Shown here: positions 1-37,763 of the stretch, piece after piece
How positions within the stretch are numbered: the first letter of the stretch is position 1
Layout of the letters: every line of letters starts with the position of its first letter
NCBI GenBank assembly: GCA_002708845.1
Contig: PAPI01000024.1
Location: forward strand, 434,001 to 498,000
From: Leeuwenhoekiella sp.
GTDB lineage: Bacteria; Bacteroidota; Bacteroidia; Flavobacteriales; Flavobacteriaceae
DNA length: 64,000 nucleotides
Reading direction: 5' to 3'
Made by a program: the position numbers and the translations under genes
The notes under the pieces: generated by a model
What the model was told of the DNA's origin: nothing
Seen by the model: the letters and a program-made list of their open reading frames with translations, nothing else
Databases searched by the model: none

Positions 1-471
1 CATTTAAAGCAAAGCGGAAAAGTGCTCAATTTTGGGGTCTCCAACTTTAGCCCGATACAGTTTGACAGCCTTCAGTCCTATCTCGATATGCCTTTAGCTA
101 CCAATCAGGTTGAACTTTCTGTTGCCTGCCTTGAACATTGGGAAAATGAGAATATTGAATTTTTCCAAAAACATAAAATCAAACCAATGGCCTGGTCTCC
201 CCTGGCCGGTGGAAAAATCTTCAAACCCGAAAGTCAGCGTGAACACCGCCTGCATTCGGTGCTTAAAGAAGTCACGGCAGAACTAGGTATTGAAGCCATA
301 GACCAAGTGATGTACGCGTGGTTATTGAAGCATCCGGTGGGTATTCTGCCAATCGTAGGCTCTCAGCACATCGACCGCATAAAAAGTGCTGTAGATGCGC
401 TTAAAATTGATTTAAGCCTGCAACAATGGTATAAAATCTGGATTGCTTCAAAAGGCGAAGATTTGCCTTAA
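1..471 (+). CDS. Aldo/keto reductase, 3' part (truncated by window start)
   Basis: The reading frame is open from base 1, so the GTG at 22 is internal and the gene begins outside the window. The visible residues match the C-terminal half of an NAD(P)H-dependent aldo/keto reductase of the YdhF type. They include a GVSNFSP strand, a NQVELS strand, an AWSPLAGG loop that contacts the cofactor and a LLKHPVGILPIVGS segment near the C terminus. The catalytic Tyr/Asp/Lys/His set would lie upstream and cannot be checked. The stop codon shares the palindromic TTAA at 468-471 with the stop of the convergent gene, and there is no terminator between them. The substrate is unknown. A link to the adjacent PUL is not supported by orientation. 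Confidence 0.85.
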   Translation, partial: HLKQSGKVLNFGVSNFSPIQFDSLQSYLDMPLATNQVELSVACLEHWENENIEFFQKHKIKPMAWSPLAGGKIFKPESQREHRLHSVLKEVTAELGIEAIDQVMYAWLLKHPVGILPIVGSQHIDRIKSAVDALKIDLSLQQWYKIWIASKGEDLP

Positions 472-3203
472 TCTTCAACCTTATATTCAAGCGATTTATA
501 ACCCAATTTACCATCATGGGAAATAACTTCTACAAGGATCGTTTTAGTTCCCGGGTTTTTAGTGTTGGGAAATGTAACCATAGCCGAAGCCTCACTTTTC
601 AGATTAATGTCGGGGTTCCAATATAAGGTAACCTCATTGTCTGCTGGCCCTAGAGATGCATCTTCCGAATCATATTTGGGAATGTAAAATTCTTTGGTAG
701 GCGTAAACAGCGGGATGCTGGTTTTTAAAATTCCTTTTGATTTATAAGCCGTGTAAAATCCGTTGCCACTGTAGGTATAAATGGCGAGAATACTTCCCTG
801 GGTTGGAGTCGTCCTCATATCCCTAAACGGATACACCCTGCGGTAAAGGGGCATAAAATTTTGAGTCACACCATCCAGAATTTCGACGCTTTTCACTTCA
901 CTGGGTGGCAAATTGGGCAAAAACTGATAGGCATCGGCCAATACGGGAATTCCGTCAACCAGAACTATAGTTTCCATACCACCGGTTACCATCGCTTTTT
1001 GATAGCGGACTCCGGTACTGTCCTGATATAATTGAAAACTAATTTTATCACCAAATGCCTGCCTGAGCACACCATAGAGTCCGTTGCTGTACTCATTTTC
1101 TTTACGCTCAATTTCCTGCCCGTCAATAACCACATCGGGCTTTCCGTAAGTGTCCATCACTTTTTGACGTTGCGGAGTAAGCTCGTAATTACTAATGAGC
1201 ACCTCGTCTAACTCGTTTATATTGGGATCGTATTCAAAAAAAGAATCTGGGCCGTCATTCTTTTCAACCGATTTTAATACCTGAGGTAACGAATCCTGAT
1301 CCTTAAAATACGCCCGGGTGCGGTCGTATGTGATTTTGGGTTTTGTAGGTTCATCAAGACTCAGCGTATAGTTCCTATTCTTACCTGCATCGCTTTTAGT
1401 TTGTAAAACCGCACGAACCCGCCTGCCTTCAAGTGAAGGCAATAGAAAATTAAAGCGTCCCAGACTATCGGTTTTTTGATAGTAAAAACGTTGTTCCTCA
1501 CCAAAAACCATAAGACTAACGTCCACGTCTTCTTTGGCTTTATCTTTATCAAAAAGCGCTGCGATCTCTCCCTGAACACCCAATCCAAATTCCGGTAAAA
1601 AGTCCATTGCTTTTGTATCTGGTGGGGTGTTAAAGGTATAACCCCGCCAACCCTGAGTTAAAAGCAGGTTATCCAGTTCGTTGGGTTTTACAAGCTGGGT
1701 GTCTTTAAAATAAAAAGACGGATTTTCAATCCTTCCTCGCAATTCCGAAGTAAGCATAAAATAGGTCCAGATACTTTGCTCCTCTTTCAATTCTTTAGGA
1801 ATTACCAAAACTGAAGCACTGGCAGACCAACTCGTATCCGCCGAGACTCCTGCTGTGGAAAGCTTCAGGCTTATTTCTTCATCTGACTTATAACCATCTC
1901 TGAGTAATTCCAGATTAAGATCAAGGGCCTCGGTTTCTAAATGATTGAAGTATAAACGCTCGGCTATCGGATTTCGATTTTGATTTTTAAGCGTAAAAAC
2001 CAGGATTCCGGCAGGTAAAGATTCATTTGAGAACACCAAGTCACGCTTTCCTCTTTCAAGTTTTCGGCCTACTTCACCGAGAGCCATACCCCGGCTACTC
2101 ACTTCCACATAAATAGAATCATTAATCAGTTGGGTCGAATTCACTTGCAAGGCTATATTTTTACCTACGCGGTTTACCGAAAGTGTACTACCTTTTTCAA
2201 CTACTTCAGGAAATGAATAAGTAAGCTTGATGTTTTCTTTTGGCTCTGCCAGCTCAACTTTATAGCTTGTTGATGCATTGGGAAACATATAAACCCGTCC
2301 CATTCCCAGTTTATTGCTTTTAAAGGCAGTTACGGGATTGTTTTGCGAATCGTAAATCGTTCCCTGAACCGCAACGCCTTTTCCGATCTCATCGATTGCT
2401 TTAAAGCCCAAAAGATTGTTCATCCCAACGATTAAGCTTCCGCCTTCGGGCAAAAACTGCATGTCTATCGCCGGTCTGGCAAGGGGTATGCTTTCGCTCC
2501 ATTGCTTGCCCGATTCGGTAGTCAGTTTAAAATGCACCCAGCTCGTCTCTTCCGGAAAATCTTCTTCCAATAAAAAATAATCAGAGGCATTTTTACGAAT
2601 TACCCGTTTTTTTACCTGATCATTATAAGCCAGTTCGAGCTCAAATTTTGAACCCACAGTACTGTCAATAAGCTTTGGATTGAATACAAAACGTAAAGCA
2701 TCCCGCCCTTCAACTTCCAGTTTGCGTACGACATCTTCCGCTATCCGATCTTCGGCAATCGTGAGATAGGTAGAAAATAAAAAATCAGAATCAAAATTTT
2801 GATCCCATTGGGTATATGCCCGGAGCTGATAGGTGCCGGGAGCATAAAAATCTTCAATACTGAAAAAATTGTTGCCAATGCCGTTATCGAGTTTGACCAA
2901 TTTCTCACCTACGATCGTCTCAAAGGGATCAATCAATTCAACCCGCAACACACCACTTAAAGTAGATGGCACATTATCTTTAGCCTGAGCGACAATTCCT
3001 TTAAACCAGATCGTCTCCCCTTTTGTATAGGCTTTGCGATCGGTTTGAATGTAGATCTTTTCGGCCAGGGCCTCGTGAGCAATTAGATTTTGCTGCGCGG
3101 AGGCCTGAGCGGCCACGAAGAATAGGATAAAAGCACAAAGGCCCGATTTAAATTTGATGAAGAAATTTGTTAGGGGGCTCTTCGGTACTTTTAAATATTG
3201 CAT
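468..3203 (-). CDS. MG2-domain / TonB plug-like secreted protein
   Basis: This is a 911-residue protein with an N-terminal signal peptide ending near ASAQ (residues 34-37). The first 300 residues contain a macroglobulin MG2-like region (KIYIQTDRKAYTKGETIWF). The C-terminal third contains a segment resembling a TonB-receptor plug (IVLVDGIPV, then PSEVKSVEILDG), but there is no 22-strand barrel, so it is not itself a receptor. Proteins of this build are common in Bacteroidota. Their function is not established; they may be envelope accessory proteins working with TonB-dependent transport. The gene starts 5 bases after the stop of the GH2 gene at 3209, so the two are almost certainly co-transcribed. 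It is the last gene of the PUL on this side. Confidence 0.65.
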   Translation of the reverse strand: MQYLKVPKSPLTNFFIKFKSGLCAFILFFVAAQASAQQNLIAHEALAEKIYIQTDRKAYTKGETIWFKGIVAQAKDNVPSTLSGVLRVELIDPFETIVGEKLVKLDNGIGNNFFSIEDFYAPGTYQLRAYTQWDQNFDSDFLFSTYLTIAEDRIAEDVVRKLEVEGRDALRFVFNPKLIDSTVGSKFELELAYNDQVKKRVIRKNASDYFLLEEDFPEETSWVHFKLTTESGKQWSESIPLARPAIDMQFLPEGGSLIVGMNNLLGFKAIDEIGKGVAVQGTIYDSQNNPVTAFKSNKLGMGRVYMFPNASTSYKVELAEPKENIKLTYSFPEVVEKGSTLSVNRVGKNIALQVNSTQLINDSIYVEVSSRGMALGEVGRKLERGKRDLVFSNESLPAGILVFTLKNQNRNPIAERLYFNHLETEALDLNLELLRDGYKSDEEISLKLSTAGVSADTSWSASASVLVIPKELKEEQSIWTYFMLTSELRGRIENPSFYFKDTQLVKPNELDNLLLTQGWRGYTFNTPPDTKAMDFLPEFGLGVQGEIAALFDKDKAKEDVDVSLMVFGEEQRFYYQKTDSLGRFNFLLPSLEGRRVRAVLQTKSDAGKNRNYTLSLDEPTKPKITYDRTRAYFKDQDSLPQVLKSVEKNDGPDSFFEYDPNINELDEVLISNYELTPQRQKVMDTYGKPDVVIDGQEIERKENEYSNGLYGVLRQAFGDKISFQLYQDSTGVRYQKAMVTGGMETIVLVDGIPVLADAYQFLPNLPPSEVKSVEILDGVTQNFMPLYRRVYPFRDMRTTPTQGSILAIYTYSGNGFYTAYKSKGILKTSIPLFTPTKEFYIPKYDSEDASLGPADNEVTLYWNPDINLKSEASAMVTFPNTKNPGTKTILVEVISHDGKLGYKSLEYKVED

Positions 3204-3208
3204 TTGGT

Positions 3209-6370
<3,162 letters not shown>

Positions 6371-6628: not shown

Positions 6629-8665
6629 TTAAAACTGAACGGTTTTGATTGAACCATCTGCCAATGTAACTTCAACGCCGGTTGATGTATTTTTTAATGC
6701 AACCGGCATCAACTCCTCATCCGTCCAGGCTTCTCCTGATTTTTTCCAAAGCATCAAGGTCGCGTAAATGTTGGTTTCAGCCTGCGGCGAAAAGCTTGCT
6801 GAAACATTGATGGTTTTGCTTTCATCAGAAACCGGGTTGAGACCTTCAGCAGAAACGAATTCGGTTTTCTCCCAACCCTGAACCGGTACTAAAGCCAGTT
6901 GGTATTCGCCGTTATCAACTATATAGGCTTCGGTATCCCCAACTTTTTGCCTGGATTGCTTCAGCTCTTTTCCTTCCAGTTTCGGTAAGGCATAATGTCC
7001 TAAACGCATCTCAACCGGCACCTGACTCGTCTGATGATCAACGCGTAATATTCCGTTAGGCAACGGAATATCTGCCAACTGCATGGTCACGTTATCGTTC
7101 GTTTCCAATACTGCATCCCGGCGATACACGCCGTTTTCAAAGCTCTTAAAGGTGTATAAGCGCCAGGGTTCCCATTCGTTTTTGGCATTTTTAAATACAT
7201 AGTTCATGGAGATTTCGCCATCTTCCCCATCTGCCTGCCACGGAAAAGCTGAATTGTACGATAGCTTGTTATAATTCTCGCTACTGCGAAAGCCCTGCCA
7301 GTCGTCTGCTTTTTTCTCGTGACACCAGGCGCGGATTTCGGCAGCGCCGATATCGGGATAATCGGTGATTAGAATATTGGATGCCGCCTGAAATTTATTG
7401 TAAACCTTGCCTTTTTCAAAGGTGGTATCCCAGGGACCTAAATTTTCGGTTGCGGTCCAAAACGGATTATCATCAGGAACCAAAAGACCCAAAAAGGCTT
7501 TCCCCATCCAGAATACACTTCCGCGGGCACTGTACACCTGTACGGCAGGCTCAAAATGTCCGTAAAAACCTAAAGTCGGAATACGATCTAACAAAAAGTC
7601 TTTATTCTGTAAAAACTGAAGTAAGGTACCTGAAGAGATGCGGCGCAACCAGCCAAAATTAATCGTGTCGTCCTGAAGGGTTCCTGTAAAGGGAAACGGA
7701 CTGATCGACCCAATGCGATAACTGATGCTTCGGCCCCACATAATCATCTCTCCATCTTCAGAAAACATATAGGGATAATGATAAACCAAATCCTGAAAAT
7801 TGGTTTTAAAGGCTTTTGCAATCTCCGGGTAATGCGTATCACCATAAACCGAAGCCCACATAGGCCCGTACACCTGAAAAGCCCACATACTGTAGTAATC
7901 GTAAGCCGGATTGTCATTATACCAGCCCTGACCACGATAATGATCCAGGGATTTTTGCAGGTACTCTTCCAATAAAGGTTTGTTTACTTCGTAACCCTGC
8001 GCGTCAAAAAAACTGAGTACAAATATGTTGAAGAATTTCCAGTTGGAAGGGACGGTAGGTCCGTCACCGTAACTCAGCATCGAAGCAGCCAATGCGTCTT
8101 TATCTTCCTGACTTAACGGATCCCAAAGAGTTTCCGGAGCAATAAACAGGGAAATCGCCAGCGCACCATATTCAACGAGATTCTGACTGGGACCACCATT
8201 CCCACGAGGTTTTATATAAGCTTCACTTTCCGGATCAGCCAATTTGGGTAATTGATGTTGATAATACTCGGCTACTTTGATTCCGTTTAAGGTGATATCA
8301 GGTTCTTTTTTGAGGAGTGGTGCTGCAACAAATAAAGTGCGCACGAGACCTTCCAGTTTTTCGGTAGGAACCCGGCTGATATCGTGCGGGTAGCTTTTTC
8401 CGGGAAGCTTTGGGAATTTCATAGGATCGTCCAGATTGTCGATATAACTAAAAGCTCCCGTTAATAAATATCGCGCGGCATCTTCCCAATGTTTTTTGGT
8501 CATACCGGTATACGGACTCGTTTTAAAATCGGGATTTTCTACCTGAAATAAGGGCATCTCACCATCTACTTTTTTTGCAGGTTTGATTTCCTGCGCTGTT
8601 AAGACAGAAAAACTAAGTAACCCTATAAATAAGCTTGTAAGAATACTTTTTTTATATAAAATCAT
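6629..8665 (-). CDS. DUF2264 family protein, putative GH154-type beta-glucuronidase
   Basis: This 678-residue protein has a signal peptide (cleavage near VLTAQ). It matches the DUF2264 family over its length: an alpha/alpha-barrel-like N-terminal domain with PRGNGGPSQNLVEYGALA, then GWYNDNPAYDYYSMWAFQVY and MWGRSISYR, followed by a beta-rich C-terminal domain. From memory, this family corresponds to CAZy GH154, which contains beta-glucuronidases acting on arabinogalactan fragments; I could not check this here. It starts 9 bases after the GH105 stop, so it belongs to block 2. Its probable role is periplasmic removal of uronic acid. The family assignment is firm and the activity is inferred. 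Confidence 0.8.
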   Translation of the reverse strand: MILYKKSILTSLFIGLLSFSVLTAQEIKPAKKVDGEMPLFQVENPDFKTSPYTGMTKKHWEDAARYLLTGAFSYIDNLDDPMKFPKLPGKSYPHDISRVPTEKLEGLVRTLFVAAPLLKKEPDITLNGIKVAEYYQHQLPKLADPESEAYIKPRGNGGPSQNLVEYGALAISLFIAPETLWDPLSQEDKDALAASMLSYGDGPTVPSNWKFFNIFVLSFFDAQGYEVNKPLLEEYLQKSLDHYRGQGWYNDNPAYDYYSMWAFQVYGPMWASVYGDTHYPEIAKAFKTNFQDLVYHYPYMFSEDGEMIMWGRSISYRIGSISPFPFTGTLQDDTINFGWLRRISSGTLLQFLQNKDFLLDRIPTLGFYGHFEPAVQVYSARGSVFWMGKAFLGLLVPDDNPFWTATENLGPWDTTFEKGKVYNKFQAASNILITDYPDIGAAEIRAWCHEKKADDWQGFRSSENYNKLSYNSAFPWQADGEDGEISMNYVFKNAKNEWEPWRLYTFKSFENGVYRRDAVLETNDNVTMQLADIPLPNGILRVDHQTSQVPVEMRLGHYALPKLEGKELKQSRQKVGDTEAYIVDNGEYQLALVPVQGWEKTEFVSAEGLNPVSDESKTINVSASFSPQAETNIYATLMLWKKSGEAWTDEELMPVALKNTSTGVEVTLADGSIKTVQF

Positions 8666-8674
8666 CTCGTGTGT

Positions 8675-9862
8675 TTAATTTGTTTTTACCAATCTGTACA
8701 TTTCGGAAGCAGCGAGTAAAAAGGCCCCCACTCCAAAGTCGGCAGTAGAATTTACATCAACCACCTGCCCGGGAATAGCTCTTTCGCCGATAGGCTGTAC
8801 ATAACCCACGGCTCCATTTTTCTGCAAGGCAACATCAGAAAGATACTTCCAGCTTTTTTCTACAACCGGCAGATAGGTTTTGGCGTCAAGAATACCGTTG
8901 TTAATACCCCATAAGTAGCCATAGGTAAAGAAGGCGGTACCGCTGGTTTCAGGTCCCGGGGCGTGCTCGGGATCAAGCATACTGCGCGTCCAGTACCCTT
9001 CGGGCTGCTGGGCCATTTTAAGGGCATGTGCCATTCTTTTATAACGGGCTTCAAAAGCTTTACGGTATTTAGAGTCCTGCGGCATATCTTGTAAAACTTT
9101 GGCTAAACCGGCAAAAACCCAGCCGTCACCACGCGCCCAGAAATCCTTTTTACCATTCAGGCTTTTGTGCTTGGGATAGACGTATTTCGCATCGCGGAAG
9201 TACAATCCCGTTTCTTCATCAAGCATGATACTGTCTGCATAGGTTAGGTACTCGTTGAGCTTGTCTAAATACTGCTCATTACCGGTCACCTGATAGAGTT
9301 TGGTCATTACCGGCATCACCATATACAGGCCATCTGCCCACCACCAGTAGTCGTTTTCAGGCGTGCTCATCTGGTATTCCATAACCTCACGGGCACGAGC
9401 GATTTTTGAAGGATCTTTAGAACCTTCTAGTGTGTACAAATCAATATAGGTCTGAAATGCGATCTGCCAGTCGCCAAAAAGTACGTGATCATCCGCTTCT
9501 CCATAATTGTATTTCCAGGCCGATTTATCATCAGATTTGGCACCTTTCCACTCGTTATGTTCTGCCCATGCGGTGGCGTAATCCAGAAAATCGTCATTTC
9601 CGGTTACTTTATACGCTTCGATATTCCCGGTTTGGTAGGCCGCAGGATGCCAGAATGCAGATGCGGGCTCGGGATGCGTTTCCTGCCAATGCGTGTTTAC
9701 TTTTTCAATACTAGCTAAAACCTGATCAGGCTTTGGAATCGAAGCATCTTTTAAAGCTGTATTACCGGATTTTGAAGCCCCGCACGAGGTCAACATTAGG
9801 GTTGAGACGAAAAGATAAATCGCCTGTGTTTTGAATGATTTGTGTTTCAAAGCGTATTTCAT
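8675..9862 (-). CDS. GH105/GH88-type unsaturated glucuronyl or rhamnogalacturonyl hydrolase, lipoprotein
   Basis: This 395-residue protein has a lipoprotein signal (LTSCGAS, Cys27). The (alpha/alpha)6 barrel motifs of the YteR/GH105 group are present: WWWADGLYM with Asp177 as the likely catalytic acid, WARGDGW at 243-249, ETSGTAFFTYGYLWG, and STADFGVGAF near the end. The family hydrates the double bond of a terminal 4,5-unsaturated uronic acid made by polysaccharide lyases; some members also accept saturated GlcA. The start codon overlaps the upstream GH16 stop in an ATGA arrangement, which suggests translational coupling. A GH105 implies that a lyase acts upstream. The neighbouring BNR propeller is the only candidate in this locus. 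Confidence 0.88.
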   Translation of the reverse strand: MKYALKHKSFKTQAIYLFVSTLMLTSCGASKSGNTALKDASIPKPDQVLASIEKVNTHWQETHPEPASAFWHPAAYQTGNIEAYKVTGNDDFLDYATAWAEHNEWKGAKSDDKSAWKYNYGEADDHVLFGDWQIAFQTYIDLYTLEGSKDPSKIARAREVMEYQMSTPENDYWWWADGLYMVMPVMTKLYQVTGNEQYLDKLNEYLTYADSIMLDEETGLYFRDAKYVYPKHKSLNGKKDFWARGDGWVFAGLAKVLQDMPQDSKYRKAFEARYKRMAHALKMAQQPEGYWTRSMLDPEHAPGPETSGTAFFTYGYLWGINNGILDAKTYLPVVEKSWKYLSDVALQKNGAVGYVQPIGERAIPGQVVDVNSTADFGVGAFLLAASEMYRLVKTN

Positions 9863-10734: not shown

Positions 10735-10743
10735 AATTTGGAT

Positions 10744-16158: not shown

Positions 16159-19290
<3,132 letters not shown>

Positions 19291-24646: not shown

Positions 24647-24663
24647 AATATTATTTTTTTTGA

Positions 24664-26645: not shown

Positions 26646-29600
26646 TTAAAAGTCAAATTGAACACCTAAATTGTAAGTAGATTGAATAGGATACCCTAAA
26701 CCATTTCCTCCCATTTCAGGATCCCAAAGCTTAAAGCTGCTCCACACGGCAAGATTAATCCCACTGGCATAAACCCGTAGTGAACGTAGACCTAAAGACT
26801 CTGTAAGTTTTTCTGAGGCGCGATACCCAAACTCGAGATTTTTAAGTCTTAAAAAGTCATTGTTTTGTAACCACCATGATGAGCTCTGCACATTATTCTC
26901 AATTTCTGTTGAGCTAAGACGAGGCCAAAAAGCATAAAGATCTCTATTATCTTCAGACCAGTAGCTGTCTGCAATAACTTTAAGCAAGCCATTTTGGCGG
27001 CCTAAGTTATCACCACTACCTAGAACAAATGGTGATATGGCGCCTGGATCGATTTGAAACGAAGATCGTGCCGATCCCTGAAAGAAAATACTCAAATCAA
27101 AATCCTTATAACCTACAGTACCTCCAAAACCGTAGATTAACTCAGGAGTTGTTGGTAGACCAATAGGTACACGGTCTAATGGAGTAATAACTCCATCACC
27201 ATTTACATCGCGATACTTGATATCTCCTGCTGAATAATTACCAAATTGAGTTGGTGAATTATTTACTTCTTCCTGATCTGTGAACAAACGCTCAGCAAGA
27301 TACCCATACATTTGAGAAGCATTATTACCTACTTGGGAGAGGTAACTTAAATCATCGGGATAGTTAAGCTCATTAGTTTGCTTCACTTCATTAGTAGCTA
27401 ATGTTAGGGTAGCTCTTGCCTGCGTCCACCATTCCTGATTAATCTGTCTGTTATAATCCAGTGATAAATCAATACCTTTTGATTCCAATTCTGCAAAATT
27501 CACCTGTGGATTAGCAGTAAGACCAATTACATCTCCTATTTCCGTACGTCTCTGAAGTATGTTTGAGCGGTTTTGTCGGTAAATTTCAGCGGTAATATTC
27601 AAATCTCTCCATAAACCTATATCGATACCAAAATTATACTGTTCAGAAATCTCCCAGCCAATATTTGGGTTCGCATATCTGTCAATTGAGATACCTGGTC
27701 TGTAGTAGTTGTAATCCTGACCGAATAGGGCTCCAAAACTTCCATTGTTTGCATTAACCCGGGATAAGTAGAAAAAGCGGTCTTCATCCTCATTACCTAT
27801 CTCATCATTACCCGCTTTACCATAAGTAAATCGAAGTTTGAGGTTAGTCACAGTTTCTTTAATTGGTTCAAAAAACGCCTCATTAGAAACTACGTAACTT
27901 ACTCCAAATGACGGAAAGAAACCATATCTGTTACTGCTGTCAAAACGTTCAGAACCATTATACCCGAAACTAAATTCAGCAATGTATCTTCTGTCAAAAG
28001 CATAGGTGAATCTTCCTGAGAATGTATGGTTACGATACTGTAATGATTGTTGCAGATTATCATAATCTGTAGTTTCAAAACTCTGCAAAACGTTAATTAA
28101 GAATGCCGACACGACGTGCTTTTCGTTAAAGGTCTTATCATAATTAAGTGTAAACTGGTTGTAAAGTCTGGAATTAGACTCATTGCCTCCTCCCGCTAAA
28201 TTGAGAAATTCAGTTCCTGGTGTTCCTATCGAGGATTGAGTTCCATCATTTAGCACCCTTAACATAATACTGTTATCGACGGGATTTCGGGAAGCCTGAT
28301 AGAAAAATGGATTATAAGCTCGACTTATTGAGTAGGTATTATAACGTCTTATGTAATTCATCGTTCCTATCTTGAGTCCATCAGTTATAAAATCAAGTTT
28401 TTGATCTAATAAAAGCTGAGCCTGCACCGTCGAGTTTTTTGTCGTACGGTATCCGCGAACCATCTCTGCGTATGGATTTCTGTATAAAGCATTACTTGAT
28501 AGAGATAAGGGTGCATTACCAAACAAAGGATGTTCTGCAATTGGGTAGAATTCTGAGGGAAAAATTGCAGGAAAGGCGACCGGATTTGAATTAACGGTTG
28601 AAGCAATGATATCTCCTCCACCGGCAATAGGACCATTATAATCGTCAAACTGACCGTATATGTTAACTGTTGCAAAAGTTGTAGGCGTCAGATCTATATC
28701 CAACTTACTTCTAAGTGAATAGTTCTGAAGTTTAATATTACTATTGAAGTTATTAATAGGATTTATATCCAAAATACCATTATCCACATTATAGGTTCCT
28801 GAAACATAATAACGCGCGCGCTCTGAACCACCACTGGCACTAATATTAAAACTTTGGTTAATTGTATAATCTTTCAAAATCTGATCTATCCAGTTATTGC
28901 TGGGGTATAAATACGGGTTATCCCCTGTTGCGGTGCGATCAATTTTTATTTGAGAATATGGTAATGCAGCTAAAGGATCACGTGTTAGTGCGGCCTCATT
29001 AGCCAAATTCATATAGGTGATATTATCTGCAAATTTGAAATTATCTGTGTTTGTAGAAATTCGAGTTGCTGCTCGTGCGCTAAATTTTGCTTTACCAGCC
29101 TTACCACTTTTTGTGGTAATAAGAATTACCCCATTTGCTCCACGTGCTCCATAAACTGAGGCCGCGGCCGCATCTTTGAGAACGGAAAATGTGTCTATAT
29201 CGTCAGGTTGTAAACGAGCAAGATCAGTAGACGTAGATTCAATATTATCAATTAATATAAGAGGATTTCGTTTACCACTACCAAAAGTGCTCAAACCTCG
29301 AATAAAAAAGTCAGAGTTATCAGCCCCAGGCTCACCAGATCTCTGAAAAGAAATCATTCCAGGCACCCTACCTGCAATCATATTCGTAAGGTTATTTGTC
29401 GGGCCTTTTAGTTCCGCAGGATTTATAGTTGCTATAGAACTCACCTGGCTTTCCTTTAGTTGCTTTCCGCCAAATGCAATTACAACGGTTTCTTCTAATG
29501 ATTCTGAACTAAGACTCAAAGTAACATTAATACTTTCCTGATCTGAAACCACAACCTCCTTGGTTTCAAAACCCACAAATGAAAATACCAAGGTAGCTCC

Positions 29601-29858
29601 AGGGGCAACCCGAATAGAATAATTTCCATCAAAATCTGTAGCAGTACCATTATTAGTACCTTTTTCAACAACTGTCACCCCAATTAAAGGCTGATTGTTA
29701 TCACTGTCATCATATACGGTACCCGTAACCACTTTCTGCAATGCAGTGTCTTCATGGTTATCAAGTCTTAAAGCATAAGTATTTAGACTCAATGTACAAC
29801 TCAGAACCAGCAGTATCAGTGAATAGGCTTGTTTAATATTAAAAATATTATGTTTCAT
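26646..29858 (-). CDS. SusC/RagA family TonB-dependent outer-membrane transporter
   Basis: This 1070-residue protein has a signal peptide, then a carboxypeptidase-regulatory-like domain (VVTGTVYDDSDNNQPLIGVT), a TonB-box region and a plug (AAAASVYGARGANGVILITT). A beta-barrel follows, ending in YNLGVQFDF with the terminal aromatic residue expected by BamA. It imports oligosaccharides across the outer membrane with energy from TonB/ExbBD. It is the second gene of block 1, 158 bases after the GH43 gene. No clear hairpin lies in that gap, so read-through from the GH43 promoter is likely. A separate promoter in the AT-rich gap is possible. Confidence 0.95.
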   Translation of the reverse strand: MKHNIFNIKQAYSLILLVLSCTLSLNTYALRLDNHEDTALQKVVTGTVYDDSDNNQPLIGVTVVEKGTNNGTATDFDGNYSIRVAPGATLVFSFVGFETKEVVVSDQESINVTLSLSSESLEETVVIAFGGKQLKESQVSSIATINPAELKGPTNNLTNMIAGRVPGMISFQRSGEPGADNSDFFIRGLSTFGSGKRNPLILIDNIESTSTDLARLQPDDIDTFSVLKDAAAASVYGARGANGVILITTKSGKAGKAKFSARAATRISTNTDNFKFADNITYMNLANEAALTRDPLAALPYSQIKIDRTATGDNPYLYPSNNWIDQILKDYTINQSFNISASGGSERARYYVSGTYNVDNGILDINPINNFNSNIKLQNYSLRSKLDIDLTPTTFATVNIYGQFDDYNGPIAGGGDIIASTVNSNPVAFPAIFPSEFYPIAEHPLFGNAPLSLSSNALYRNPYAEMVRGYRTTKNSTVQAQLLLDQKLDFITDGLKIGTMNYIRRYNTYSISRAYNPFFYQASRNPVDNSIMLRVLNDGTQSSIGTPGTEFLNLAGGGNESNSRLYNQFTLNYDKTFNEKHVVSAFLINVLQSFETTDYDNLQQSLQYRNHTFSGRFTYAFDRRYIAEFSFGYNGSERFDSSNRYGFFPSFGVSYVVSNEAFFEPIKETVTNLKLRFTYGKAGNDEIGNEDEDRFFYLSRVNANNGSFGALFGQDYNYYRPGISIDRYANPNIGWEISEQYNFGIDIGLWRDLNITAEIYRQNRSNILQRRTEIGDVIGLTANPQVNFAELESKGIDLSLDYNRQINQEWWTQARATLTLATNEVKQTNELNYPDDLSYLSQVGNNASQMYGYLAERLFTDQEEVNNSPTQFGNYSAGDIKYRDVNGDGVITPLDRVPIGLPTTPELIYGFGGTVGYKDFDLSIFFQGSARSSFQIDPGAISPFVLGSGDNLGRQNGLLKVIADSYWSEDNRDLYAFWPRLSSTEIENNVQSSSWWLQNNDFLRLKNLEFGYRASEKLTESLGLRSLRVYASGINLAVWSSFKLWDPEMGGNGLGYPIQSTYNLGVQFDF

Positions 29859-30016: not shown

Positions 30017-31177
30017 TTATTTTTCAGATTCCGTTTGACGAACGTATCTTCTTTCATTGAGATTCCATTCATCAATCCATTTAATTTCGGGACTATTATT
30101 CTTAATAGCTAAAGGTAACCACACGTACCGACCGTCCTTATGATTTTTTGGGTTCCAGCGATCAGCCATAAAAATAAATGTATCCTTTCTTCCTTCTACC
30201 GGCAATATGAAGGTACTTTGAGAATTAAATGTTACATCAGCGTCCTTACCCTTTGCTGGATTTCCAAGACTCTCCCAGGGACCAAGCATCGATTTTGCTC
30301 TGAATGATCTGGCGGCATTAGGGTCCCAGCCCGTCAGACCCGATGTGACCATATAATAATAATCACCACTTTTAAATACGGCTGGAGCCTCATTCTGCCC
30401 ACCGGGCTGAACTCGTACCCACGTATCTGTAAAGTCCAGATAGTCATCTGTTAAAAGTGATATATGCAACGTTTGGTTCTCTTCAGATGAGTGTATGTGA
30501 TAGGCTTTGTTATCGTCATCTACAAAGACAGTCATATCTCGTGACATCTGTCCTTCTTCAAAGTCTCTTCTCACGTATAAACCATCTTCTAAGGCCTTTC
30601 CCCATTCTCCTGTCCACCACTCATATCTTAACTCTGTAGCGTTTTCTTTTGTCTTCTGATGTTCTGAAAAATTTTGTGGCCAAACTCCGGCATTGGGTCT
30701 ATAAGATTTGACATACTCAAAAGGGCCTACCGGTGAATCACTTACAGCAACTCCGGTTCTTGCAGCTTCATACCCGCGATCTTTAAGTTCCAGATGAAAC
30801 CAGAGAACATATTTCCGGGTTTTCTTATTATAAATAACTTTAGGACGCTCTATTACTGAGCCACTTGTAATCTCAGAAGATGCATCGGTACTTACCGCCA
30901 AAGCAACACCTTCATTTTTCCAATTAAGCAAATCTTTAGAGCTGTACACACGTACACCTACTTCAGCCAAACTATTCCGGCTCTTATGCTCGCCATACCA
31001 ATAATAGATACCGTCTTGATAGTAAAAACCTCCTCCGTGAGCATTTATAGTATCACCATCTACATCATACCAAACTTTCCCCGGGAGAAAAGATTCCTTT
31101 TTAACACTTAGCTGTGCTTGAACCCCTGCGCTCGAGGCAAAAATTAGGATTAATAAAAAGACATTACTTATATACAT
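30017..31177 (-). CDS. GH43 subfamily-24-like exo-beta-1,3-galactanase
   Basis: This 386-residue enzyme has a signal peptide ending at GVQAQ. The five-bladed propeller begins with WYDVDGDTINAHGGGFYYQD, where most GH43 enzymes have the general-base Asp. Here it is replaced, which is the hallmark of the exo-beta-1,3-galactanase subfamily. Other expected residues are present: Glu110 (ERPKVIYN), Asp214 (SRDMTVF), Glu263 as the likely acid (QNEAPAVF), and Gln320 (FNSQSTF), which has been proposed to act in place of the base in a fungal homologue. The enzyme would release galactose, or Gal carrying a 1,6-side chain, from beta-1,3-galactan. It is the first gene of block 1 and diverges from the HTCS gene. 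Confidence 0.82.
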   Translation of the reverse strand: MYISNVFLLILIFASSAGVQAQLSVKKESFLPGKVWYDVDGDTINAHGGGFYYQDGIYYWYGEHKSRNSLAEVGVRVYSSKDLLNWKNEGVALAVSTDASSEITSGSVIERPKVIYNKKTRKYVLWFHLELKDRGYEAARTGVAVSDSPVGPFEYVKSYRPNAGVWPQNFSEHQKTKENATELRYEWWTGEWGKALEDGLYVRRDFEEGQMSRDMTVFVDDDNKAYHIHSSEENQTLHISLLTDDYLDFTDTWVRVQPGGQNEAPAVFKSGDYYYMVTSGLTGWDPNAARSFRAKSMLGPWESLGNPAKGKDADVTFNSQSTFILPVEGRKDTFIFMADRWNPKNHKDGRYVWLPLAIKNNSPEIKWIDEWNLNERRYVRQTESEK

Positions 31178-31404: not shown

Positions 31405-34400
31405 ATGTTAACAAAAAGAACTGTTAAGACATTATTTATCTTTCAATTATTCAGCTTATTCATTTTTGGCCAAAATGAAACCCTTAGAACAAAACGTTTA
31501 TCTAATAGGCTAACCTTTTATCACATCAATACAGATCTTGGTCTATCTAACAATCAAGTAAAATCGATTGAGGAGGATAAACTCGGCTTTATTTGGGTAG
31601 GTACATCAGACGGGATAAACAGATACGATGGTAATCAATTTAAAGTATTTAGAAAAGAGACTTCAAATCTCACAAATAATTATATCCAACATATCGATAA
31701 GTCAAATTGCGGCAACCTGTTTATAGCAACAGATGGTGGATTAAATATTTTCAATCCGCGTAAGGAAGAATTTTCCTTTTTTCAGTCAGACCTGTCCTAT
31801 ATATCTAATAGTATAAATTCTGTACTTGAGCTCGCAAACCAAACAATACTAGTTGGGGCTTATGACGAAGGACTACACCTGTTTAAGGATAATAAGAGTA
31901 TTGGATTTTACGCTCATCTCGATGATCAGATAAACTCCCTTTCCTCAAACAAAATATCCTGCATGGTTAATCAGAATGATTCTATTGTATGGGTAGGCAC
32001 TTTTGATAACGGTCTTAACAGAATAAACATTAAAACTAAAGAAGTTTCCCGAATATCATTTAAATCAAAAGATGAGGCTACTATCAATGCTATTTTAATA
32101 GATCAAATGGGAAATACGTGGGTTGGGACGCATTCTGGCCTTAAAGTGTACACGACCTCTGGAAAACGATACGAATTAGACCAGAGAAACTCAGGAAAAG
32201 GGCTGAGTGATGATGTAATATTATCCCTTGAAGAAGATGATTTTGGACAAATTTGGGTTGGCACTCAATATGGCGGTTTAAATATTTTAGACCGTAATAG
32301 TTTTTTAAAAAATCCCGATGAGCCATTAATAAAATGGTATTCGCCAAAAGAAAATAATTCAAGTGTCTCAGATGCCACGATCTCTGCACTCTTTAAAGAC
32401 AGTTCTGGTAATATGTGGATAGGTACCAGCGCAGGATTAAATTTTGTTGACCCAAGTGGTGAAGCTTTAACATTGATAAGTAACGACCTATATAACTCTG
32501 AAAGAATTGCTCATAACCGCGTATTTGCCATCGAAGAATTATCTGAAAACAAACTAATTCTGGGTACGGATGGTGGAGGCCTTGACGTCTATGATTTGAA
32601 AACAGGTGACTTTGATTATGGTGTATACTCTTCCAGAAACAAACTTTCCACAAACTATATAAATACCTTATATAAAGACAGTAAGAGTAGAATATGGATT
32701 GGAACTTATAAAGGAGGTCTTTCCTGCGTTGATTTGAAAACTCAAAAATGGTCTTATTATTTGCAGGGAAGTTTAGGTAAGGGAAGTGATATAAGGGCGA
32801 TATTTGAGAATAAAGAGGGACAATTATGGGTTGGAACAAACCGCGATGGCTTTTTCAAATATTCAGAAAGTAAACAAGACTTTATAAATGAAGAACCTCT
32901 GGAGAAAGCCTTCGGAAAGATTGATGTGCGTGATATTACGCAGGATTCAAACGGAACTTTGTGGTTAGCAACTTATGGTAACGGTATTATAAGTTATAAT
33001 CTCAAAGATCAAAGTGCTTATTCTTATCACACCAATAACCTTGAAAATTTACGTGGTAATGTTGTTTACAGTATTACTGTTTTAAAAACCGGAGAAGTAG
33101 TAGCAGGGACCAAACACGGAGGACTAATTCGCTTCAATCCTAATTCAACAAAAGCAATTAGTATTACTGAAGCACAGGGATTAAGTAATAATACTATAAA
33201 TAGTATTATTAACTGGGATACTAATTATCTCTGGTTAGCTACTGATAAAGGAATTAATAAATACAATACTAAAAACAATACTATTGAAAGTATTAACCTG
33301 CCTAACAGTGTTCAAATAACCGAATTTAATATTGGTGCAATTTTAAAATCATCAACTAATAAATTATTTCTCGGGAGTAACAGAGGAATATTTGAATTTA
33401 ATCCAGAAGCTCTAGATCAAACTAGTTCTGCCGGGCCTATTGTTCTGGAAGACCTCCTAATTTTCAATGAGTCTGTACCTATATCAGGAGAAGATGGTAA
33501 AGGAATATTGAACAGCTCTATGCTTTATAAAGAACAAATAAATATTCCATTTGATAAAACGGTTTTTTCAATTGACTTTACAAGCCTCAGCTTCCCTTTT
33601 TCGGAAAATATCACCTATTCCTATATTCTCGAAGGATTTAACGACAACTGGATTGATCTCAAAAATGCAAATCGTATTAACTTTAGTAACATCCCACCAG
33701 GAAAATATACCTTGAAAATCAGGCAAAATAACCTAGCCGATTCCACTGATTTGAAAACCCTAGATATTAATATCCTACCCCCATTCTGGAGAACAATCCC
33801 TGCCTACTTATTTTATTTAGCAGTATTAATTATTTTCATTGTAAGTGCATTAAAATACTACTCAGAACGTATACACCTTAAAAACTCCCTGCTCTTTGAG
33901 CAAAAACAGCGCAAGCTGGAGCACGAACTTAACGAAGAACGGATTCGTTTTTATACGGGTTTTTCTCACGAATTAAAAACACCTCTTACCCTCATACTGG
34001 CACCGTTGGAAACTTTACTGGATGAGATCGTTCAAAAACGACATCGCAAAAGTTTAAAACTTATACGCCGTAATGCAGATAACCTGCTCAGTTTTATAAA
34101 TAAACTTTTAGAATTTAGAAAAAGTGAAGAAGGCCTCAGCAAACTGGAGCTTAATGAATACAATTTGAGCAAAAATCTTTCACAATGGCTTTCAGGATAT
34201 GAACCTCTCGTGAAGAAAAAAAGCATCAACCTGATGGTCACCATGCCTCAGAAAACGGTTAAAGTGTACTGCGACCTCGAAAAAATACACGTAATCGTAA
34301 ATAATTTGATTTCCAATGCTATCAAATACACACCCGAAGGCGGTAAGATTAACGTCATTCTGGAAGCGGATGAGTCTTATGTCAATTTTGTAGTTGCAGA

Positions 34401-35505
34401 TACTGGAAGCGGAATTAGAACCAGCGATCTCAATCATATTTTTGAGTGGTATTATCAATCTGAAAATAAGTTCAAAAAAGACGGAACGGGAATTGGTTTG
34501 GCTCTTTCCAGAAGGTTTGCGCATTTGCACAAAGGTTTTCTTCAGGTTGAGAGCAAAGCAAATCACGGCAGCACCTTTACCTTAAAAATACCTAATGATG
34601 ACACTTTACTCGATGCCTTTCTACAGCACGAAGAACGACCTCAAATCAATAAAAAGGAAGTTGAAAAACGCATCAATCAAACTGAACTTATAAACCCAGA
34701 AACTAAAGCCAACAGTGTTTATCTCAAGGCTGATAGCTCCAGAAAATTAGTGCTGCTGGTAGATGACAACCCTGATATTCTGGAGTTTCTGGAAAGCGCT
34801 CTGGGCGCCGACTATGATCTCATTCAGGCTGAAGATGGTGAGGAAGGCATTGGGCTGGCAGTTAAGTACATTCCTGATTTAATAATTAGTGATGTGATGA
34901 TGCCGGTTAAAAATGGACTCGATCTGTGCCATTTCATAAAAAACAAAAAGCAAACCTCACACATTCCGGTTATCCTGCTTTCTGCCAAAAGTAACTACGA
35001 AACCATTGAAACCGGCTATGACGAGGGAGCTGATGATTATATCGTTAAACCTTTCAACGTACAGGTACTTCGCGCCCGAGTCAAAAACCTGATTGAAAGT
35101 CGTGAATTCCTGCTCAAAAAGGTTCAGGAAACCCCTGTTGTATCTGCTGAAAATCAGGAAGATTCTAAAATTCTTGAAAACGAAAAAAAATTCCTGGCAG
35201 AATTAAAACAGCTCATATTTGAGCAAACTCAGGAAGGTGACGTTAGCGTAGAGACTATTGCCGAAAATATTGGGATGAGCCGATCTTCACTCTACCGTAA
35301 GGTAAAAGCGATCACGGGACAAAGTATAAATGAATACCTCAGAGACATCAGGCTTGAGAAAGCAGCTTACCTGATCGAAAAAGAAAGCTTTACGGTATCT
35401 CAGGCAGCTTATGAGGTTGGTTTTGGGGATGCCAAATACTTCCGGAAAATCTTTAAAGAGAAGTTTGGTAAAACACCTTCAGCTTTCAAACAGAATCCGC
35501 TGTAA
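31405..35505 (+). CDS. Hybrid two-component system regulator (HTCS) of the PUL
   Basis: This is a 1366-residue one-protein sensor and regulator. After a signal peptide (LFIFGQ) come about 14 Reg_prop blades forming two periplasmic propellers (repeats of IWVGTxxG, to about residue 720). A Y_Y_Y domain, a single membrane helix near 798-820 and a HisKA domain with His855 in FSHELKTPL follow. Next are HATPase_c (DTGSGI, GTGIGLALS), a receiver domain with Asp1163 in ISDVMMP, and an AraC-type DNA-binding domain (about 1270-1362). It probably senses an oligosaccharide in the periplasm and switches on the divergent GH43-SusCD operon and block 2. All core phosphorelay residues are intact. Confidence 0.95.
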   Translation: MLTKRTVKTLFIFQLFSLFIFGQNETLRTKRLSNRLTFYHINTDLGLSNNQVKSIEEDKLGFIWVGTSDGINRYDGNQFKVFRKETSNLTNNYIQHIDKSNCGNLFIATDGGLNIFNPRKEEFSFFQSDLSYISNSINSVLELANQTILVGAYDEGLHLFKDNKSIGFYAHLDDQINSLSSNKISCMVNQNDSIVWVGTFDNGLNRINIKTKEVSRISFKSKDEATINAILIDQMGNTWVGTHSGLKVYTTSGKRYELDQRNSGKGLSDDVILSLEEDDFGQIWVGTQYGGLNILDRNSFLKNPDEPLIKWYSPKENNSSVSDATISALFKDSSGNMWIGTSAGLNFVDPSGEALTLISNDLYNSERIAHNRVFAIEELSENKLILGTDGGGLDVYDLKTGDFDYGVYSSRNKLSTNYINTLYKDSKSRIWIGTYKGGLSCVDLKTQKWSYYLQGSLGKGSDIRAIFENKEGQLWVGTNRDGFFKYSESKQDFINEEPLEKAFGKIDVRDITQDSNGTLWLATYGNGIISYNLKDQSAYSYHTNNLENLRGNVVYSITVLKTGEVVAGTKHGGLIRFNPNSTKAISITEAQGLSNNTINSIINWDTNYLWLATDKGINKYNTKNNTIESINLPNSVQITEFNIGAILKSSTNKLFLGSNRGIFEFNPEALDQTSSAGPIVLEDLLIFNESVPISGEDGKGILNSSMLYKEQINIPFDKTVFSIDFTSLSFPFSENITYSYILEGFNDNWIDLKNANRINFSNIPPGKYTLKIRQNNLADSTDLKTLDINILPPFWRTIPAYLFYLAVLIIFIVSALKYYSERIHLKNSLLFEQKQRKLEHELNEERIRFYTGFSHELKTPLTLILAPLETLLDEIVQKRHRKSLKLIRRNADNLLSFINKLLEFRKSEEGLSKLELNEYNLSKNLSQWLSGYEPLVKKKSINLMVTMPQKTVKVYCDLEKIHVIVNNLISNAIKYTPEGGKINVILEADESYVNFVVADTGSGIRTSDLNHIFEWYYQSENKFKKDGTGIGLALSRRFAHLHKGFLQVESKANHGSTFTLKIPNDDTLLDAFLQHEERPQINKKEVEKRINQTELINPETKANSVYLKADSSRKLVLLVDDNPDILEFLESALGADYDLIQAEDGEEGIGLAVKYIPDLIISDVMMPVKNGLDLCHFIKNKKQTSHIPVILLSAKSNYETIETGYDEGADDYIVKPFNVQVLRARVKNLIESREFLLKKVQETPVVSAENQEDSKILENEKKFLAELKQLIFEQTQEGDVSVETIAENIGMSRSSLYRKVKAITGQSINEYLRDIRLEKAAYLIEKESFTVSQAAYEVGFGDAKYFRKIFKEKFGKTPSAFKQNPL

Positions 35506-35521
35506 ATACAGCAGCTAAAGT

Positions 35522-35557
35522 AAAAAGCCCTCTCTACTTATGTAAAGAGGGCTTTTT
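35522..35557. terminator. Bidirectional terminator between HTCS and double GH43 genes
   Basis: A perfect 12-bp inverted repeat (AAAAAGCCCTCT at 35522-35533, AGAGGGCTTTTT at 35546-35557) has a short inner TAC/GTA helix in the loop. The A-run and T-run on either side allow it to end transcription from both convergent genes. Confidence 0.88.
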
Positions 35558-35579
35558 AAAATTGGATACTTATTAATTA

Positions 35580-37763
35580 CTAGGGAAGATTAACCGGTTC
35601 AATACCTTTAAGCGTGGGTTTCACTGGAATGATTGACCCATCTTCAGTAAAACTGAGTTTGTCAATACACACTTCTCTGTTAAAGCCTGCGGCGCCTCCC
35701 ATGCTAATTCCTTTAGGCCGCGTAAAGCGATGATAAACAATATACCAGTCATCGGTTCCCGGTACGTTAATTACCGAATTATGACCAGTACCATAAATTT
35801 CCTGTTCCTCATCCTTCATAATAACCAGATTTTCTTCGGGAATATTCAAAGGTTCTAACGGACTGTCTGCAGTGGCGTAGCGCACGCGGTAATTAGGGCT
35901 TCGGGTATCGTCTTCAGACCACATAAAGTAGTAGGTTCCGTTTCTGAAAAATACTTCGGTTCCTTCCCTGTAGGTTCCGTCCGGAGTCATTTCGGTAATG
36001 GTTTCTTCCTTGAGGGAGCGCATATCTTCATTCAATTCGGCTCCAGCCATATAGCCATTACCCCAATAGAAATAGCTTTTTCCGCTTTGCGGATCTTGGA
36101 AAACATCCGGATCAATAATCTGGCCTCCTCCCCTTTTGATTGCCTCTGGTTTTTCACCTACAAAAGCCTTACCCGAATCGGTATACGGACCGGCAGGATT
36201 ATCGGCAACAGCCAGACCTATTTGTTGTGCGGCAGAAAAATAGTAGAAATACTGGTACTTTCCGTCAATCTTTCGCTCTGCGATACAGGGTGCCCAGGCA
36301 TTGCGATTTGCCCAGCTTACATCTTTAGTCAAATCAACGATCACACCTTCATCCTTCCAGTTTACTAAATCTGTAGATGAAAAGGTTTTAAAATACGTTC
36401 CTGCCCAGCCATCAAAACCATCACTGGTAGGATACAAATAAAATTTCTGGTCTTTATTAGAATAAATAATTTCAGGATCAGCATAGTAACCATCCAAAAC
36501 CGGATTTCCGGCTAGTTCTGCTTTTACTTCGTAGGTGGTTGTCGTTCCGTCAGGAAGGTTAAGCGTGTAGGAAACAGCATCATTTTCAAAATCGTAAGAC
36601 TCGTTTTGCTCAACCGTTACTCCCGGAAAAGTAAGGAGTCCCGGATTAAAACTACTCAGATCGCTGCCCGGGTAAACCGGTAGATATACGGTCTTTGCTT
36701 CTGCATCAACCTTAATATTCTGATTCCTCACAGCCTGATTGGTCGCACCTGTCACTAAAGGCAAATCTTTAGATGGAAATGCTTTTAACAAACGGTTAGC
36801 TTCCTGCTCTGTAATGGGAATAATCGTACCGTGACGCGGGTGAAAGTTCATCGAAATTTCAGCAGCACCCAGGGCTTCAAAATTACGCAGGTCTGTACTT
36901 TCAGCAAATTGATACGCTCCATCTATATACATATCATAAAGTAGAATGTATGTGTCACTATCTATCATTTTGAAGACGGAAGAACCTTCCACGGCTTTAT
37001 CAGTCTGATCTACGTAGCCTTCAACAGGCACATAACCGCCGGTAAGGCTGTCTGAAACTGCAACACGAATACCTTTAGTTGCTGTACCTTCGGTTTTGTA
37101 AAACATATAGAACTTTCCGTCTTTATTAATAATATCTGCATCAATACAGGATTTTTCATCCGGACTATAAAAGAGCTGTTTTGGTGCTGATTCTAAAGCT
37201 GTAAAATCGGCATTTGCGTAGGCATAATAGATTTTATCATAACTCCCCGGCTGCAGCATCGAGAAATACACCATGTATTTTCCTGCTTCCGCATCATAAA
37301 TCGTCTGGGGCGCCCAGGCACGGGTAATGTCTGAAAATTCTGGAAAAACCTCAGCAAGATTTATTTTACTGGTTTCCCAGGCTACCAGATCGCTTGATTT
37401 TGCCAGGATGATTTCCGTATTGCTCCATCCGTTTTGCGTTTTCAAATCGGTTAATACCATATAAAATATACCATCTTCTCCACGTAAAATATGCGGATCA
37501 CGTACCCCACCGGTATTGCTTATTTGTGCTGTTGGCACAATAGGTTTATCATCATTAAGCGCATAATAATCATAACCGTTGCGACTTAAAGCATAATGCA
37601 CAGCCTCTTCGCCAGGGCCATTACCGGTGAAATAAACAAACAGGTAGGCCGATTTAGGATCATCTTCTTCCTGAGATTTGACTTCAGATGTTTTACAGGA
37701 TGCTGCAACAATAAAAAGTCCGAAAAGGCTGAATAAAAGAAATTTGGAATAATAAGAATTCAT
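35580..37763 (-). CDS. Lipoprotein with two GH43-type catalytic domains
   Basis: This 727-residue lipoprotein (VAASCKT, Cys23) joins two five-bladed propellers. The N-terminal one (about 38-315) has Asp89 in GGVRDPHIL, Asp208 in CIDADI and Glu259 in AVEGSSVF. A beta-rich linker of about 70 residues (345-418) resembles a DUF5018-like segment. The C-terminal domain (about 422-720) has Asp429 in YYADPEI, Asp551 in IIDPDVF, Glu600 in YREGTEVF and His661 in GTGHNSV, like GH43_34-type enzymes. Both domains keep a plausible Asp/Asp/Glu triad, so both may be active. Likely targets are arabinofuranosyl or galactosyl side groups. It has its own promoter and lies at the PUL edge, facing the HTCS gene. 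Confidence 0.85.
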   Translation of the reverse strand: MNSYYSKFLLFSLFGLFIVAASCKTSEVKSQEEDDPKSAYLFVYFTGNGPGEEAVHYALSRNGYDYYALNDDKPIVPTAQISNTGGVRDPHILRGEDGIFYMVLTDLKTQNGWSNTEIILAKSSDLVAWETSKINLAEVFPEFSDITRAWAPQTIYDAEAGKYMVYFSMLQPGSYDKIYYAYANADFTALESAPKQLFYSPDEKSCIDADIINKDGKFYMFYKTEGTATKGIRVAVSDSLTGGYVPVEGYVDQTDKAVEGSSVFKMIDSDTYILLYDMYIDGAYQFAESTDLRNFEALGAAEISMNFHPRHGTIIPITEQEANRLLKAFPSKDLPLVTGATNQAVRNQNIKVDAEAKTVYLPVYPGSDLSSFNPGLLTFPGVTVEQNESYDFENDAVSYTLNLPDGTTTTYEVKAELAGNPVLDGYYADPEIIYSNKDQKFYLYPTSDGFDGWAGTYFKTFSSTDLVNWKDEGVIVDLTKDVSWANRNAWAPCIAERKIDGKYQYFYYFSAAQQIGLAVADNPAGPYTDSGKAFVGEKPEAIKRGGGQIIDPDVFQDPQSGKSYFYWGNGYMAGAELNEDMRSLKEETITEMTPDGTYREGTEVFFRNGTYYFMWSEDDTRSPNYRVRYATADSPLEPLNIPEENLVIMKDEEQEIYGTGHNSVINVPGTDDWYIVYHRFTRPKGISMGGAAGFNREVCIDKLSFTEDGSIIPVKPTLKGIEPVNLP

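Follow-up and report, generated by a model that had tools for sequence, protein, structure and literature searches.

We analysed a 64,000-nucleotide stretch (the window) of a Leeuwenhoekiella sp. genome of 4.35 Mb in 39 contigs, and found at positions 468-37763 a polysaccharide utilization locus (PUL) with a SusC/SusD pair and a hybrid two-component system (HTCS) regulator. We consider it likely, with a probability of roughly 0.85, that this locus serves the uptake and breakdown of a type II arabinogalactan with alpha-L-rhamnose-(1,4)-beta-glucuronic acid (Rha-GlcA) at the ends of its side chains, that is, the arabinogalactan-protein (AGP) glycans of seagrass, algal or plant debris. This reading draws on the genes present, on conserved residues, on placement in a tree and on linkage kept in relatives. 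Open reading frame calling and Pfam searches gave 17 proteins, and bore out all gene classes named in an original prediction (SusCD, HTCS, GH43, GH16, GH2s, GH97, double GH43, GH105, DUF2264 and BNR); as that prediction had also held, no sulfatase was matched among the 17 proteins by Pfam. The locus has the genes expected of an AGP-type PUL: SusCD, GH43_24, a candidate for Rha-GlcA decapping, GH105 and beta-galactosidase-type GH2. The genes, with the evidence for each, are:

468..3203, minus strand: MG2/Plug-like protein, possible last operon gene (Pfam MG2 under cut-off, weak Plug)
3209..6364, minus strand: GH2 a, beta-galactosidase-type with LacZ architecture (Pfam GH2/LacZ domains)
6629..8665, minus strand: DUF2264 protein, long form with a C-terminal beta-rich domain, predicted beta-glucuronate dehydratase of GH154 type (Pfam; PDB 9o4u/8oi4/9nwf; residues; model)
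8675..9862, minus strand: GH105, predicted unsaturated glucuronyl hydrolase with a lipobox-like signal (Pfam Glyco_hydro_88; similarity to 5noa)
9859..10734, minus strand: GH16, predicted endo-beta-1,3-galactanase with a lipobox-like signal (Pfam; tree clade; linkage to AGP markers)
10744..14136, minus strand: FG-GAP/UnbV_ASPIC lipoprotein (Pfam)
14192..16150, minus strand: GH97 of retaining type, predicted beta-L-arabinopyranosidase/alpha-galactosidase (5xfm score; KVDF Asp)
16159..19284, minus strand: GH2 b, beta-galactosidase-type (Pfam)
19291..20607, minus strand: BNR_4 propeller of PL42 (former GH145), candidate Rha-alpha-1,4-GlcA lyase/rhamnosidase (PDB scores; residues; NCBIfam)
20867..22069, minus strand: HExxH lipoprotein, Fn3-like domains and a C-terminal domain with an HExxH motif (domain searches; alignment)
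22196..23410, minus strand: candidate surface glycan-binding protein 2 (SGBP2), DUF4998/DUF5013 (Pfam)
23429..24670, minus strand: candidate surface glycan-binding protein 1 (SGBP1), DUF4959/5126/5000 (Pfam)
24664..26631, minus strand: SusD (Pfam)
26646..29858, minus strand: SusC TonB-dependent transporter (Pfam; TIGR04056)
30017..31177, minus strand: GH43_24, predicted exo-beta-1,3-galactanase (6eug (BT3683) score; 7/7 residues)
31405..35505, plus strand: HTCS regulator (Pfam)
35580..37763, minus strand: double GH43 with a lipobox-like signal, perhaps an alpha-L-arabinofuranosidase (Pfam; C-terminal domain near 3qz4)

The genes from GH43 down to the MG2/Plug-like gene form a single long minus-strand block, in which 10 of 14 gaps are below 60 bases; the plus-strand HTCS gene and then the minus-strand double GH43 gene lie beyond it.

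We assigned the BNR_4 propeller to PL42 from its matches in the PDB, where four GH145 chains scored 458-477 bits, a fungal Rha-GlcA lyase ~120 bits and the ulvan lyase Uly1 ~23 bits. The nearest NCBIfam model is that of the BT3686 rhamnosidase, and the window protein missed its equivalog cut-off (606 of 700 bits), which argues against a BT3686 equivalog and not against membership of the family. GH145 was to be renamed PL42 since its anterior site is that of a lyase (PMC8377490), so the original claim that the locus has no classical lyase holds in name only. Members of the family may have two sites: the posterior one is a hydrolase site and has His48, and the anterior one is a lyase site and has His90, His110, Tyr143 and Arg333 (PMC8406133). 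All four anterior residues are present in the window propeller (H97, H117, Y150 and R338), as is the posterior histidine (H55). For comparison, we confirmed at least 30 loci with relatives of the propeller; counts out of 30 refer to the 30 stretches listed, some of which are limited by contig ends, and in which 12 window genes besides PL42 were scored. The anterior His, His and Tyr were found in all 30 relatives and the Arg in 29, the remaining one being cut by a contig end. The posterior His is kept in four of the 30 (L. marinoflava, Aestuariibaculum, Arcticibacter and a Balneolaceae metagenome-assembled genome), in line with a published remark that it is rare outside gut bacteria. The window PL42 is thus a candidate for dual lyase and hydrolase action, with lyase action the safer bet.

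The DUF2264 protein is predicted to act on the glucuronate that the propeller would expose. Its sole significant PDB matches were the solved GH154 chains (9o4u, 8oi4 and 9nwf). For two GH154 enzymes, BcGDH and BT_3677, a 2025 study showed a glucuronate dehydratase activity, which primes terminal GlcA for GH88/GH105 (PMC12269599). The window protein resembles these dehydratases in fold and in keeping nine of ten BcGDH active-site residues (E105, R109, N208, W209, F212, Y258, R312, Y316 and Y378); unlike the solved GH154 chains, it is a long form with two domains (678 aa), and it shares 21-23% identity with them in the aligned part. The sole mismatch is N176, replaced by Ser207. DUF2264 proteins were found near PL42 in 14 of the 30 listed loci by profile and in nine by single-sequence search; among the 16 relatives from those 14 loci, the mismatched site is Ser, Thr or Met in every one and five other N-terminal sites are kept, and the dehydratase base, Arg, acid and last Tyr are conserved in all 15 complete sequences. 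An apparent loss of the base Tyr (Met at 260 by phmmer) was rejected: a multiple alignment places Tyr258 there, across a two-residue gap. A Foldseek search with a structural model (mean pLDDT 68.6, 12 sequences) returned GH154 chains 9o4u and 8oi4 on top (E ~1e-9, TMt 0.69-0.73, TMq 0.42-0.44), and the modelled fold next resembled two-domain alginate, heparin and chondroitin lyases, such as PL17 Alg17c.

The closest solved relatives of the window GH105, judged by sequence similarity, are unsaturated uronyl hydrolases. It matched 5noa, named a family 88 glycosyl hydrolase, at 576 bits (67.6% identity over 364 aligned residues); its third PDB match was 4ce7, named an unsaturated rhamnoglycuronyl hydrolase, at 173 bits, and YteR scored 49 bits. 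The 2025 proposal that GH154 enzymes are dehydratases can explain a GH105 beside a Rha-GlcA propeller: a lyase, or a hydrolase followed by a dehydratase, would give the same unsaturated uronate. The puzzle of a GH105 in a locus seemingly devoid of lyases would be resolved in this way, GH105 being supplied with its unsaturated substrate by PL42 as well as by the dehydratase. The residues of PL42 and of the dehydratase strengthen the original proposal of a galactan capped with Rha and GlcA.

For the galactan backbone, we compared the 386-residue GH43 with BT3683 (6eug), which it matches at 438 bits. GH43_24 enzymes are characterized by the absence of the Asp base, a Gln base, a Glu acid, a Glu for the C4-OH and a set of subsite -1 residues (PMC7939473). 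When aligned to BT3683, with the numbering checked by E367/W541/Q577, the window protein keeps all seven tested residues (E63, E110, R111, D214, E263, W284 and Q320), of which Q320 is the Gln in place of the usual Asp base. The GH43 therefore belongs with subfamily 24, as had been proposed.

We next compared the GH16 with proteins from 296 Bacteroidota genomes, 154 of which had some match at 1e-20. Matches of at least 241 bits occurred in 16 genomes besides the host's own; the best match in each remaining genome scored at most 176 bits. GH43_24, PL42, GH105 or DUF2264 lay within ~10 kb in 7 of the 16 high-scoring regions and in none of 18 lower-scoring regions (17 picked from the survey, and the C19 cluster of the host's own genome; Fisher p 0.0021); contig ends cut short a few regions of either set. 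A tree of 50 rows placed the window GH16 in a clade of 26 rows (100/100), together with all seven GH16s that lie near PL42 in the 30 listed loci. This clade excluded 4crq (an endo-1,3-glucanase), LamCAT 6jh5, 6xof, 6t2n and the host's three other GH16s, which fell on the laminarinase side; one lower-scoring row, L135, was placed inside it on a very long branch. Because similarity to the query guided part of the choice of rows, the linkage and the placement of the solved laminarinases weigh more than the clade itself. The expectation that the GH16 would not group with laminarinases was thus upheld, and we predict by association that it is an endo-beta-1,3-galactanase.

The grouping of these genes is conserved in relatives. 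Among the matches listed, the closest relatives of the propeller are all from Leeuwenhoekiella (L. parthenopeia, 80% identity; L. palythoae and L. marinoflava, 65%). L. parthenopeia keeps the order GH43_24-SusC-SusD-SGBP1-SGBP2-PEP-PL42-GH2-GH97-FGGAP-GH16-GH105, with 64-97% identity across the 21 kb compared, indicating that the grouping is not due to chance. Around the 30 listed PL42 genes, GH105 was found in 13 stretches, GH16 in seven and GH43_24 in five. L. palythoae and L. marinoflava have a second, short DUF2264 gene between GH16 and GH105 (L004:17331-18554 and L005:17350-18564); the window genome and L. parthenopeia have a single DUF2264 only. With the second site of the propeller being His, Tyr or Phe and the short second dehydratase present or absent, Leeuwenhoekiella offers a natural test set.

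Several observations weigh against our interpretation. GH105 was not seen in 17 of the 30 listed PL42 stretches, and eight showed none of the 12 other scored window genes at the cut-offs used. Six of these eight have full flanks (L006-L009, L027 and L029) and come from four Flavobacterium, a Sphingobacterium and a Pedobacter; PL42 is therefore not confined to AGP-type loci. Nine of the 16 high-scoring GH16 regions had none of the four AGP markers nearby, and the GH16 tree held no characterized galactanase. Ten proteins sampled from eight of the nine marker-free regions (L112, L114, L116-L120 and L127; not L122) formed a mixed set that is neutral on this point; neighbours there included a GH5-like protein, a galactokinase, an MGH1-like glycosidase, an esterase-GH16 fusion, a subtilase and an ABC transporter. 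The posterior His of the propeller is Tyr in the nearest orthologue, and hence may not matter; it is Phe in L. palythoae. Lastly, the lyase site of characterized enzymes acted on wine AGP and not on gum arabic AGP (PMC8406133).

We weighed three other substrates. The locus might serve ulvan or another algal polysaccharide containing Rha and GlcA, the propeller being an ulvan-type lyase that feeds GH105. Ulvan PULs typically have PL24, PL25, PL28 or PL40 lyases and sulfatases; here Pfam matched no sulfatase in the locus, and the sole propeller is GH145-like, with Uly1 far below the four GH145 chains. GH43_24, an enzyme of beta-1,3-galactan, and the two beta-galactosidase-type GH2s would also be without an evident role. 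We therefore regard ulvan as highly improbable, despite the anterior triad that PL42 has in common with PL25 ulvan lyases (PMC8406133) and the rank of 4ce7 among the matches of GH105. A target such as rhamnogalacturonan-I or pectin bearing type II arabinogalactan side chains, with GH105 acting on unsaturated galacturonate, seems to us very unlikely. Loci for pectin often carry GH105 and GH43. Moreover, four expressed GH105s accompany growth of Maribacter on larch arabinogalactan (PMC11036162). However, Pfam matched no pectate or rhamnogalacturonan lyase, GH28, GH78 or GH106 among the locus proteins, and GH105 is far closer to 5noa than to YteR.

That the locus targets a laminarin-like beta-1,3-glucan, with GH16 as a laminarinase, is scarcely credible. 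Six of the ten PDB matches of GH16 below 1e-28 are named laminarinase, LamCAT, ULam or endo-1,3-beta-glucanase, but the best match, the GH16 6t2n, comes from work on gut mucin O-glycanases. The tree likewise separates the window GH16 from 4crq and LamCAT, and a laminarin substrate would leave GH43_24 and the uronate enzymes without an evident role.

Under our preferred reading of a Rha-GlcA-capped type II arabinogalactan, we propose the following predicted activities, together with the cellular locations and induction that such a PUL would imply. PL42 would take off the terminal Rha by one of two routes: beta-elimination at the anterior site would give unsaturated GlcA, and hydrolysis at the posterior site would give the saturated form. 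The DUF2264 protein would dehydrate the saturated terminal GlcA to its 4,5-unsaturated form, and GH105, where both routes would meet, would remove the unsaturated uronate. The double GH43 and GH97 may strip arabinofuranose and beta-arabinopyranose or alpha-galactose, and the GH2 pair and GH43_24 would complete the breakdown of side chains and backbone. The AGP of Zostera is a branched beta-1,3/1,6-galactan with terminal arabinofuranose, terminal GlcA with 4-O-methyl-GlcA, 1,4-GlcA and some terminal Rha, and seagrass AGPs end in much 4-O-methyl-GlcA (PMC7237498). Zostera AGP fits the predicted enzyme list, plant-litter or algal AGPs would fit it equally, and sequence cannot choose between them. 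It is conceivable, though unlikely, that the DUF2264 protein, with its modelled resemblance to two-domain lyases, acts on terminal 4-O-methyl-glucuronate by eliminating methanol (or on Rha-GlcA by eliminating Rha), and not only water. If so, the locus would be one for seagrass AGPs, and the HExxH lipoprotein, at the cell surface, would bind the protein core of these AGPs or cut it.

Sulfated chains would probably fall to a second, paralogous SusCD locus of the same genome, which has sulfatases. We found 16 sulfatase-family matches in the host genome, 14 of them strong, and 12 of the strong ones lie on contigs C20 and C27. C20 (1-50000) holds paralogues of SusC (59-61% identity), SusD (54%), SGBP1 (45%) and SGBP2 (37%), together with a GH43_24-like gene (54%), a GH43 with F5/8 and secretion-tail domains, GH2, GH35, two GH30, several esterase-like genes, four sulfatases and a distant BNR_4 in which the anterior Arg is replaced by Gly in the alignment; it is likely to be a PUL for sulfated type II galactan. 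On C27 (52000-78000), a further GH43_24-like gene (51%) is flanked by sulfatases; this cluster also has an HTCS and a SusCD that is more distant. With sulfatases, GH43_24-like genes and SusCD on these contigs, we dropped the idea that the host cannot handle sulfation. Judging from gene content, the host most likely splits the work, with the window locus for an unsulfated Rha-GlcA-capped substrate and the other loci for sulfated galactans.

The original prediction had described the locus as an unusual variant on account of a retaining GH97, an FG-GAP lipoprotein and a peptidase-like lipoprotein. The GH97 matched 5xfm at 773 bits (next chain, 135), and its KVDF Asp aligns with that of the solved alpha-galactosidase 3a24; we take 5xfm to be B. 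thetaiotaomicron BT_3661, a retaining arabinopyranosidase/galactosidase. With so close a solved relative, the GH97 can no longer be called unusual. Both lipoproteins are indeed present but look accessory, FG-GAP occurring in one and HExxH in two of the 30 listed PL42 stretches, and the claim is weaker for it. The FG-GAP lipoprotein is in L. parthenopeia, and the stretches from L. palythoae and L. marinoflava showed none; relatives (43-44%) occur in two GH16 regions. The H-E-x-x-H motif is invariant in five aligned sequences. Its domain was found in three of 395 Bacteroidota genomes, counting the host's own and a weak match (E 9e-4), and in one distant genome it follows SusC-SusD-SGBP1-SGBP2, as in the window; within the genus, L. 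parthenopeia and L. marinoflava have it and the L. palythoae genome lacks it. A profile search of this C-terminal domain against the PDB returned chance matches only (best E 0.038, HIV envelope chains), and a structural model of the lipoprotein (pLDDT 46.7, three sequences) was set aside as unusable. Adjoining the HExxH lipoprotein in stretch L005 is a lipoprotein (7516-8685) with an Fn3-like start and a C-terminal part that is GH16-like by eye. In stretch L066 (Bacteroidota genome G476), the HExxH domain follows a region that is ricin-B lectin-like by eye, beside an HTCS gene. As for the double GH43, its C-terminal domain is close to 3qz4, and its N-terminal part scored far under the cut-off of the NCBIfam arabinofuranosidase model (92 of 500 bits).

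At the end of the block, the MG2/Plug-like gene runs in the same direction as GH2 a with a 5-base gap between them, and its membership of the PUL is only possible. A weak homologue sits between SGBP2 and GH43_24 in stretch L018 (3743-6322), such that MG2/Plug-like proteins recur in AGP-type loci. Oxidative pentose phosphate genes (6PGL, G6PD and 6PGD) adjoin the PUL at 43187-47187, an ordinary neighbourhood.

A literature search found no report of an AGP locus in Leeuwenhoekiella among the matches listed, subscription literature being mostly outside its coverage. In its gene counterparts, the window locus resembles the B. thetaiotaomicron AGP locus (PUL-AGPs), with counterparts of GH43_24 BT3683, GH145/PL42 BT3686 and the GH154 dehydratase BT3677, and a GH105 close to 5noa; we take the three B. 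thetaiotaomicron genes to lie in one locus and 5noa to be the GH105 of that locus. In addition, the window block has GH16, GH97, two GH2 and the HExxH and FG-GAP lipoproteins. Of the B. plebeius loci for sulfated AGPs, PUL5 and PUL13, the former has GH43_24, GH145 and GH105, as in the window; the B. plebeius apparatus includes a sulfatase, whereas the sulfatases of the window host sit with the paralogous SusCD on another contig, and the B. plebeius GH145 is described as lacking the posterior His that the window propeller keeps (PMC8406133). Arabinogalactan PULs 1, 7 and 8 of Maribacter sp. MAR_2009_72 likewise belong to a marine flavobacterium and have a double GH43 and GH105, but the main text of that study does not mention GH16, GH97 or GH154 (PMC11036162). 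The double GH43 of the window resembles the Maribacter GH43_19+GH43_34 protein in layout (PMC11036162). The same study states that arabinogalactan degradation pathways had before 2024 been described only for gut and plant-associated bacteria. Marine bacterial arabinogalactan degradation is thus little studied, and the window locus would be a compact marine case. There is good evidence for this assignment; the enzyme set is nearly complete for AGP breakdown, and its parts are mostly of kinds known from gut bacteria, so that its novelty is modest.

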